Source of the DNA: Chitinophagaceae bacterium
GTDB lineage: Bacteria; Bacteroidota; Bacteroidia; Chitinophagales; Chitinophagaceae
Direction of reading: 5' to 3'
Length of the DNA: 64,000 nucleotides
Assembly (NCBI GenBank): GCA_947488765.1
Contig: CANLAE010000006.1
Coordinates: forward strand, 1 to 64,000
Part shown: in pieces, positions 15,305 to 57,426 of the stretch
How positions within the stretch are numbered: position 1 is the stretch's first letter
Layout of the letters: the number at the start of each line of letters is the position of its first letter
The notes under the pieces: generated by a model
Databases searched by the model: none
What the model was told of the DNA's origin: nothing
What the model saw: the letters and a program-made list of their open reading frames with translations, nothing else
Program-made: the position numbers and the translations under genes

Positions 15305-15765
15305 AATAGGTTATTTTTGAAGCATTGAAGATACGCTGAGCAAATGAAGTAAAAACAGTTTGAATTGAAATTTTTGTGGCAATCGGCTGCAACGCTTTAC
15401 CCGTTTGTAGTTGGGGCTTTTCGCATGTAGTCCTCGCAAAGCTGCGGGCTACTTTGCTGTAATCCCCCTGCCTTTTAACGTTAGTTCTTTGTTGAACTTT
15501 TGTCTATTCTATTTATTTGTTTGTTTTCCTAACTTGAATTAATCTTCCCGACTACGTCACGGTGTTACCAAATCTCTGATTTGTAGTAGAAATGATTTTT
15601 AATAGCTGTATCATCAATCAAATGGCTGCCGGATTGCAGTGGAAATACTTTTTGTAGGCACGACAAAAAGATTGAAACGAAAAGCCGGAACTGCAGTTGA
15701 GATAAGGGTTGCAGCTCACAGCCTAAAATATAATTTTCTTTAAACAGACACAAGTTTATTGTGCG
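15305..15765. other. Structured, GC-richer intergenic region (461 bases)
   Basis: No convincing gene is present; a short frame at 15565-15753 has no family features. The DNA is visibly richer in G and C than other gaps. It holds a strong hairpin at 15427-15452 (GTAGTCC paired with GGGCTAC plus an inner CGC/GCG), a hairpin at 15648-15670 (CTTTTTGT with ACAAAAAG), and two near-direct copies of GCCGGAnnTGCAGT at 15628-15640 and 15684-15697 that flank the second hairpin. It looks like one or two copies of a dispersed non-coding element, or a small RNA locus. Confidence 0.45.
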
Positions 15766-56546: not shown

Positions 56547-56861
56547 CGTTTTTGCGGTTTGTGCCCCGCTTGAGGTGTGGAGGACTTGAAGCCAGATGAA
56601 TTTGCTTCATTCAATCCCTGTTTGCTGCCGACCTTTTCCTGAATTTCATTTTAATCTGCTTGGTGCATATTAAAATGAGGGGAAGTACCGGAAGTAAACA
56701 AACCTCGAAGGGCCTGTTTATATGTACTTTTCTCTTTTCGTTTTAATAACTTTAAGAGAAATTTTTTCTATCAGAGCTCTTTTCTTGTAGTTTAAAACAA
56801 TTGAGAGTTGACTATTTTTATAAGAACTTTATAATTATACTTCTTTAGGAAGAATAAATAA
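56547..56861 (-). promoter_or_regulatory. Structured 315-base leader between rpsJ and rplC, candidate ribosomal-protein RNA regulator
   Basis: The gap has no open frame of note. As minus-strand RNA it contains several hairpins: AAACAGGCC and GGUUUGUUU (two G/U pairs) with a CUUCGA loop at 56696-56719; a 9-bp CAUUUUAAU/AUUAAAAUG stem at 56647-56677; and a short AUGAA/UUCAU stem near 56596. No exact TAnnTTTG box is present, so it is probably transcribed from the rpsJ promoter. Adjacent ribosomal protein genes are usually a few tens of bases apart, so this size and structure suggest a regulatory element bound by L3, L4 or another product. Confidence 0.5.
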
Positions 56862-57167
56862 TTATGCTTTAATCTCTACCTCTACTCCTGAAGGCAAATC
56901 TAATTTACTCAAAGCATCAACCGTACGAGATGATGAAGTGTAAATATCCAACAAACGCTTGTGCGTACATAATTGGAATTGTTCACGACTTTTCTTATTC
57001 ACGTGCGGAGAACGCAATACTGTAAAAATTCTTTTACGTGTTGGTAAAGGAATAGGACCAGTTACAACTGCCCCTGTACTGCGAACTGTCTTTACAATTT
57101 TCTCAGCTGATTTATCTACCAAGTTATGATCATAAGACTGTAATTTGATTCTGATTCTTTGAGACAT
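56862..57167 (-). CDS. rpsJ: 30S ribosomal protein S10
   Basis: Small-subunit protein that also acts in transcription antitermination as NusE. The 101-residue product is standard: [40 protein letters not shown] and [20 protein letters not shown]. It follows a strong promoter 29 bases upstream, so it is the first gene of the S10 unit here; fusA and tuf do not precede it. Confidence 0.98.
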
Positions 57168-57195: not shown

Positions 57196-57227
57196 CAAAT
57201 GTAGGGTGTTATACATTAACCATCAAA
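57196..57227 (-). promoter_or_regulatory. Consensus Bacteroidota promoter of rpsJ
   Basis: Minus strand: TTTG at 57224-57227, a 20-base spacer and TACATTTG at 57196-57203, matching both consensus boxes exactly. The predicted start of transcription is near 57189, about 20 bases before the ATG. Confidence 0.8.
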
Positions 57228-57393: not shown

Positions 57394-57426
57394 TAAAAAA
57401 ACCCCATCCAAAAAAGGACAGGGTTT
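57394..57426 (-). terminator. Terminator after rpsG
   Basis: Minus strand: AACCCTGTCC-TTTTTT-GGATGGGGTT, a 10-bp stem with two G/U pairs, followed by a T-run. It starts 23 bases after the rpsG stop and ends the rpsL-rpsG unit. Confidence 0.88.

Follow-up and report, generated by a model that had tools for sequence, protein, structure and literature searches.

In Escherichia coli, the S10 operon is regulated by L4 through a long structured leader RNA that precedes rpsJ, and the available part of the source also describes attenuation at a Rho-independent terminator (PMC10931766). The ribosomal leaders surveyed by Eckert and Weinberg in 2020 are RNAs with covarying structure that lie consistently before genes of ribosomal proteins, and several of them (those of L13, S4, S15 and S16) come from Bacteroidota; however, among the 20 leaders in Table 1 of that survey, none precedes rplC in Bacteroidota, and the one before rplC-rplD is archaeal (Archaeoglobi) (PMC7247131). 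A further related case is boxA, for which the accessible text of one study gives the E. coli consensus GYTCTTTAANA, the repression of suhB by Nus factors in E. coli and, for a few genera of gammaproteobacteria, putative boxA sites close to rpsJ (PMC5725501).

The RNA described here, from the S10 operon of a member of the Chitinophagaceae, compares with each of these systems. Like the E. coli S10 leader, it is a long structured RNA proposed to control the genes of this operon, but it is situated between rpsJ and rplC rather than before rpsJ, and its gap contains no terminator-like site. It shares with the surveyed leaders a covarying structure found consistently before a ribosomal protein gene. 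As with suhB, a Nus-factor operon carries a boxA-like element in its mRNA; in the present case, however, the element comes after the S10 gene, ahead of a structured leader, and binding of NusB-S10 to it is putative. In a search of mostly open-access literature, no description was found of a leader before rplC in Bacteroidota. The RNA is presented as a new ribosomal-leader candidate, unusual in place and make-up.

The rpsJ-rplC gap of the window

The window, that is, the whole stretch of 64,000 nucleotides that was analysed, carries on its minus strand the genes rpsL, rpsG and rpsJ, a 315-nt gap (running from 56861 to 56547), and then rplC, rplD, rplW, rplB and onward (Table 1). The original prediction had described a gap of this length between rpsJ and rplC, unusually long for the cluster and without a coding frame, and each of these points was borne out. 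The gap occupies exactly 56547-56861 between two minus-strand genes, and the neighboring spacers are far shorter (15-81 nt for the eleven from rplX to rplC, and 48 nt for rpsG-rpsL); the rpsJ-rpsG spacer is likewise long, at 281 nt, but the rpsJ promoter and terminator-like sites are located there. Within the rpsJ-rplC gap, the longest open stretch starting with ATG has 25 codons, which rules out a hidden gene, and a repeat or mobile element was ruled out because the gap sequence is single copy in its genome. The identity of S7 (rpsG) was confirmed by NCBIfam, as were those of S10, L3 and L4; the remaining gene names were read off translations.

Table 1. Features of the rpsJ-rplC region in the window.
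Feature	Position	Strand	Remarks
Bacteroidota-type promoter pattern TTG-N20-TACATTTG	57196..57226	-	ends 28 nt before rpsJ start
rpsJ, ribosomal protein S10 (also NusE)	56862..57167	-	NCBIfam TIGR01049, E 6e-43
Leader RNA, whole intergenic	56547..56861	-	315 nt
boxA-like element AGUUCUUA	56821..56828	-	starts 33 nt 3' of rpsJ stop
P1 hairpin GUCA-A-CUCU ... AGAG-CUC-UGAU	56770..56812	-	minimum-energy fold of the stretch and covariation
P2 hairpin AAACAGGCC-CUUCGA-GGUUUGUUU	56696..56719	-	UUCG hairpin of the original prediction; 99% of cells paired, nearly invariant
P3 stem, internal loop GGUAC/AAAAGGUC, inner stem UUCC/GGAA	56625..56694	-	internal loop conserved; variable tip 56647-56677
P4 hairpin GGGA-UUGA- ... 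-G-UCC	56582..56618	-	conserved GGAUUGA, freely covarying upper stem
P5, possible hairpin GCGG-GGCACAAA-CCGC	56554..56569	-	directly before rplC start; 1/4 pairs significant
rplC, ribosomal protein L3	55929..56546	-	first gene 3' of leader; NCBIfam TIGR03625, E 2e-75
rplD, ribosomal protein L4	55272..55907	-	second gene 3' of leader, rival ligand; NCBIfam TIGR03953, E 9e-68

The promoter pattern upstream of rpsJ was called with a consensus that we take to be the Bacteroidota type. Of 121 related loci, 115 have such a pattern no more than 200 nt before rpsJ and one has it inside the gap; an internal promoter was accordingly rejected. Because the pattern precedes rpsJ and is not in the gap, the gap is most likely an internal leader, leading from the first to the second gene of the operon. 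The absence of a terminator-like site from the window's gap favors translational control over attenuation. Farther upstream, a terminator-like hairpin with a T run was noted at 57399-57426 (-), 3' of rpsG and before the rpsJ promoter, so that transcription of rpsL-rpsG appears to be separate from that of the rpsJ operon.

At the gathering score, Rfam gave no match in the window's rpsJ-rplC gap, and a relation in sequence or fold to the E. coli S10 leader was judged solely by this absence. No Rfam match fell within the gap in 13 related loci either, the sole match there being a DUF805b cis-regulatory RNA outside the gap (locus L061, 320-356). The sole Rfam family in the window is a Flavo-1 RNA at 15620-15695 (+; 54.2 bits, E 6e-9).

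Conservation and fold of the leader

In the first set of relatives, rplC was found in 38 of 39 genomes. Among 24 Chitinophagaceae loci (window included), 19 have a gap of 273-423 nt with shared sequence blocks; these blocks are missing from the remaining five, in which the gap is 98-228 nt. The rpsJ-rplC gap measures 4-78 nt in five loci of other families, and in locus L027 rpsJ was not found. A set of 80 loci from named relatives identified the window's family as Chitinophagaceae. Long leaders are present in Sediminibacterium, Hydrotalea, Flavisolibacter, Terrimonas, Flavihumibacter, Gynurincola, Paracnuella and Puia, and short leaders in Chitinophaga, Ferruginibacter, Flavipsychrobacter and Taibaiella.

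A covariance model of the rplC-side part of the leader (R1) was built from 34 of 46 long leaders, the other 12 being excluded owing to long inserts. R1 matched 251 of 394 sampled Chitinophagaceae genomes, representing 70 of 101 genera, and gave no match in 143. When genomes sampled from the order or from the class were searched, 27 of 198 and 2 of 198, respectively, were matched, every one of them from Chitinophagaceae. Among the matches listed, R1 was found once per genome, with two matches in G258 and in G265. The leader stood consistently upstream of a ribosomal protein gene, as ribosomal leaders do: rpsJ came before and rplC after the gap in all 96 R1-matching loci (L118-L213, some of which repeat earlier genomes), and the best match was within the rpsJ-rplC gap in 89 of 89 loci outside the training set of the model. 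An extra match in L143 (E 0.003), on the opposite strand and extending beyond the end of the gap, was taken as chance. A candidate regulatory RNA of about 300 nt, with no Rfam family, is thus common to most sampled Chitinophagaceae.

Folding of the transcribed (minus) strand yielded -70.1 kcal/mol, compared with -53.0 (sd 4.5) for shuffles, giving a z of -3.8 and a lower energy than 100 of 100 dinucleotide shuffles. The plus strand of the gap reached z -3.4, which is near enough to the minus-strand value that folding energy alone cannot tell the strand. In the 34-sequence alignment, 85.2% of the cells in the proposed helices pair, compared with 75.3% after shuffling (0 of 500 as high), and 52-56% pair when one strand is slid by one column; the weakest helices are the variable tip of P3 (59%) and P5 (60%). 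An unprompted RNAalifold run recovered P2, P3, P3b and P4, and did not recover P5, which we regard as a possible, weak hairpin. For the 89 leaders outside the model (together with the chance row of L143), 94.7% of cells pair versus 80.0% when shuffled, in an alignment that leans to the model.

Covariation was also measured by a model-free approach. Here, 123 non-redundant gaps were aligned by sequence alone, a tree was made, and the inferred substitutions were thrown again over the tree to give the null; this null, which preserves phylogeny, came from our own script rather than from R-scape. The seven top-covarying column pairs were in P4b and P1b, and the eighth was in the P2 loop. When all column pairs were candidates, four reached E < 0.05; when the 52 proposed pairs were candidates (P1a having been added to them after the all-pair result was viewed), 29 had a two-set E < 0.05, with at least one in each of the ten helices P1a-P5. 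A secondary structure supported by covariation, as in known ribosomal leaders, was therefore obtained from the covariance comparison that the original prediction had proposed. Its proposal of a structured gap containing a UUCG-loop hairpin stood in part: the fold is under selection and P2 stays paired with hardly any variation, but the loop consists of the six bases CUUCGA, whose end bases C and A are unpaired, and it is not conserved, given that 26 of 123 relatives carry another loop. The relatives, among which a lack of conservation or a pseudogene would have spoken against the prediction, show the gap conserved in sequence and structure and no pseudogene. Judged from these comparisons of sequence, the gap is conserved and under selection.

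The individual helices differ in how they vary. P2 contributes just one covarying pair (an AU to UA exchange) because it hardly varies. In the upper stem of P4, seven of seven pairs have changed on both sides, six of them significantly in the covariation test, and the window's own P3 has one U-C mismatch. Conserved unpaired residues were observed in the P3 loop (GGUAC/AAAAGGUC), in P4 (GGAUUGA) and in the P1 loop. Two further pairings noticed by eye, AGUUCUU with AAGAGCU and AAGGU (in P3) with ACCUU (before P5), were dropped, as no covariation support was found for them.

P1, the boxA-like element and candidate ligands

P1 consists of two short helices around an asymmetric loop, in which a 5' AU mostly faces a 3' CGCU or CUCU; the window has AA facing CUCU. 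The A and the last U of the loop are able to pair, which leaves a U opposite CKC, or in the window an A opposite CUC. P1b is paired in 41 of 41 aligned long leaders by way of CG, GC, UA and AU exchanges. A search for the loop with 5' AU or AA, two pairs below and four above, gave 113 of 123 long leaders against a shuffled mean of 7.5 (maximum 13), 30 of 33 short leaders against 0.4 (maximum 1) and 10 of 10 leaders of a second family, f8; with AU alone, the counts were 105 of 123, 24 of 33 and 10 of 10, respectively. Under a stricter helix demand, 18 of 123 long leaders passed (shuffled 1.25), because the lower helix is short in long leaders. P1 is the most widely shared part of the leader and recurs without the rest in sister genera and in the second family, which the original prediction did not foresee, as it did not foresee the boxA-like element. 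P1 ends 13-15 nt before the rplC start in f8; short and long leaders place it a median 18 and 203 nt, respectively, from the start codon, the long ones having P2-P5 in between. We read P1 as the putative binding site and P2-P5 as a relay domain that may have been gained or lost. From f8 (P1 alone) through the short leaders (P1, often with boxA) to the long ones (boxA, P1 and P2-P5), leader size changes around a fixed loop.

These features also bear on the possibility that the stretch from rpsJ to rplC is shielded or cleaved by way of its hairpins, giving S10 and the remaining products in different amounts, with nothing being sensed. Several hairpins with variable tips between two cistrons would suit such a processing or stability element; however, the conserved unpaired residues suggest a bound partner, and P1 is kept beside the start codon in short leaders and in f8. 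We consider this explanation very improbable.

A search for the boxA-like element as GYTCTTW found it in 112 of 123 long leaders against a shuffled mean of 11.6 (maximum 22) and in 17 of 28 short leaders against 0.8 (maximum 4); it was absent from 11 in each group and from all 10 f8 leaders. Across the whole window, AGYTCTTW occurs 12 times, compared with 12.1 expected, and is thus at chance level there. The element resembles the boxA of rRNA operons, in that the AGUUCUUA/U core is common to the rrn operons of two relatives, where AGUUCUUUGAAAG lies before 16S and AGYUCUUUGACAUAUUGG before 23S; one relative's rrn operon also has AGUUCUUAU 3' of 16S. A model of boxA and P1 made from long leaders (R2) matched the short leaders L076, L065, L072 and L066 with E 0.0008-0.012, and other short leaders less well. 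The boxA of E. coli serves as the NusB-S10 site.

One explanation would assign the whole RNA to the Nus factors: NusB-S10 on the boxA-like site would antiterminate, or would repress rplC in the manner of suhB, and the fold would serve the Nus complex with no other ribosomal protein involved. The frequency of the element, far above that in shuffles, and the matching elements in rrn operons of relatives speak for it, as do the repression of suhB and the putative boxA near rpsJ in some gammaproteobacteria, within the portion of the source available (PMC5725501). However, f8 has P1 without the element, which is also missing from 11 long leaders (of 123) and 11 short ones (of 28), and this explanation does not account for the invariant loops of P1 and P3 and bulge of P4. 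The element is also short and differs partly from the E. coli consensus, with A in place of T at position 7 in most leaders. Control by Nus factors alone is, in our judgment, decidedly unlikely.

Our preferred reading, which is tentative, is that the gap RNA is a cis-acting leader in the S10 operon, acting as an autogenous translational operator whose ligand is most likely L3. Free L3 in excess over rRNA (with L4 as the next candidate) would bind the P1 loop, and bound P1 would lower translation of rplC, and of downstream genes by coupling or through Rho. The short distance between P1 and the start codon in sister lineages would permit simple occlusion. In the window's type the distance is ~200 nt, too far for P1 alone to occlude the start codon, and P2-P5, situated between the two, would have to relay binding. 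NusB with S10 would bind the boxA-like site and either carry RNA polymerase through ~300 untranslated bases or provide a second input.

The original prediction had named L3 or L4 as the regulator. Its proposal of an autoregulatory leader gains from the finding of a covarying RNA directly before rplC; it leaned on L4 by analogy with S10 operons, whereas the evidence leans weakly to L3. This leaning arises because P1 is directly before rplC in two families and because a like loop is present in 23S domain VI. The latter came from a search of four rRNA sequences (two 23S, two 16S) for the P1 loop with its strands in either order. It gave one site, the same in both 23S sequences, where CGC faces U; the chance expectation was 0.4-0.9 matches per rRNA sequence. 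With the sarcin-ricin loop as the reference point, at its assumed E. coli number, the site is at about E. coli 2681 in domain VI and belongs to what we take to be helix 96 (H96). Bacterial L3 contacts domain VI near helix 95, and L4 sites are mainly in domains I-II. In yeast, L3 contacts rRNA domain VI near helix 95, according to the accessible part of the report (PMC9508819). Helix 96 lies next to the sarcin-ricin helix, the region of this contact. The helix 96 likeness lends weak support to L3, and several results speak against it: an unconstrained fold displays the 23S loop in no more than three of six 23S loci, 32 of 200 shuffled 23S sequences yield a motif as large, and CUA, neither CGC nor CUC, stands at this site in the one f8 23S sequence that covers it.

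Other comparisons with rRNA yielded little. Mimicry at the level of sequence was rejected, since the 9-mers shared with two 23S loci numbered 16 and 18 versus control means of 16.1 and 17.6. R1 had no match within 23S or 16S at E < 1, its best match at rRNA loci being downstream of 23S (E 0.074 in one search and 0.016 in another), and no convincing R2 match was obtained at rRNA loci, where the best one (E 1.3) lay before 16S. Early ideas of a likeness to 23S H97, 23S H24 and 16S h24 were dropped. To our knowledge, L3 is not known as an autoregulator in bacteria; if it is the ligand here, it would be one not otherwise known for any bacterial leader.

The same feedback with L4 as ligand, encoded by the second gene 3' of the leader, would make the RNA a counterpart of the E. 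coli S10 leader. L4 regulates the E. coli S10 operon through its leader, as the available part of the source states (PMC10931766), Table 1 of the survey by Eckert and Weinberg names L4 on the same 'prior' ground for the archaeal rplC-rplD leader (PMC7247131), and rplD comes next after rplC in the window. On the other hand, the E. coli leader precedes rpsJ and the window's RNA lies 3' of it, P1 stays adjacent to rplC in f8 and in short leaders, and domain VI, which holds the sole similar loop identified in 23S, is away from the main L4 sites. We regard L4 as an unlikely ligand.

A ligand of another kind, either a ribosomal protein from outside the products of the operon or a small molecule, would also be compatible with a fold large enough for a complex binding site. 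Helix 96 has protein neighbors besides L3, such as L14 and L19. However, the RNA is found only before rplC in the loci examined, and regulation is commonly exerted through feedback from a product of the same operon; we consider such a ligand quite improbable.

An elaboration of the L3 reading, which we consider decidedly unlikely, is a leader with two inputs, in which L3 would bind P1 as a mimic of 23S helix 96, NusB-S10 (with S10 from the preceding gene) would bind boxA, and P2-P5 would act as a switch. In such a switch, the foot of P2 and an extension of P3 would compete with each other, and the P2 loop strand could pair with GGGGC close to the start codon. Pairing between the loop strand and GGGGC was best with the leader's own loop in four of seven loop types; of the 26 unusual P2 loops, 17 outperform the common loop in pairing with the tail of their own leader and nine do not, and this column pair was absent among the 60 covarying column pairs listed. 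If the two-input leader is true, the S10 complex that antiterminates rRNA would tie ribosomal protein synthesis to rRNA synthesis. The presence of a boxA-like site and a putative ribosomal protein operator in one leader would make a link between rRNA antitermination and ribosomal protein supply directly testable.

Gaps in other lineages

P1 occurred once in 44 loci of the order's other families, 21 of which have a gap of at least 30 nt; most of these families have short gaps without P1. Together with the 143 of 394 genomes lacking an R1 match, this indicates that the proposed control is not universal. In two loci of family f4 (L246 and L030), with gaps of 43-46 nt, UUAAC-CAUAGC-CGCU-GUUAA or a similar sequence precedes rplC, and this hairpin is possibly P1 shrunk to its loop and lower helix. 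The 64-nt gap of L261 (family f15) contains UUC-AU-GAAAC ... CUCU-GAA, which is P1-like with a mismatch in the upper helix and was not counted by the scan. In the Chitinophaga-type loci L057, L061, L067, L083 and L022, a P2-like hairpin, GGUCGCGCC-UUCU-GGGCGACC or similar, precedes P1, the reverse of the order in the window.

The rpsJ-rplC gap of Flavobacterium (about 400 nt) is likewise long and in the same place. However, it has a promoter pattern near rplC and no visible sequence relation to the window's leader, and P1 was found once or twice in 27 loci (L088-L117, 25 of them usable and mostly Flavobacterium), which is at chance level; given this different arrangement, the Flavobacterium gap was rejected as an instance of the same leader. 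In locus L103 (DMPB01000139.1), an apparent 256-nt insert in rplC proved to be a run of N in the assembly and was rejected as biology. In L090-L106, a conserved promoter pattern was observed near rplC, and the 5' end of the gap appeared terminator-like by eye; Flavobacterium rplC may start its own transcript within the gap.
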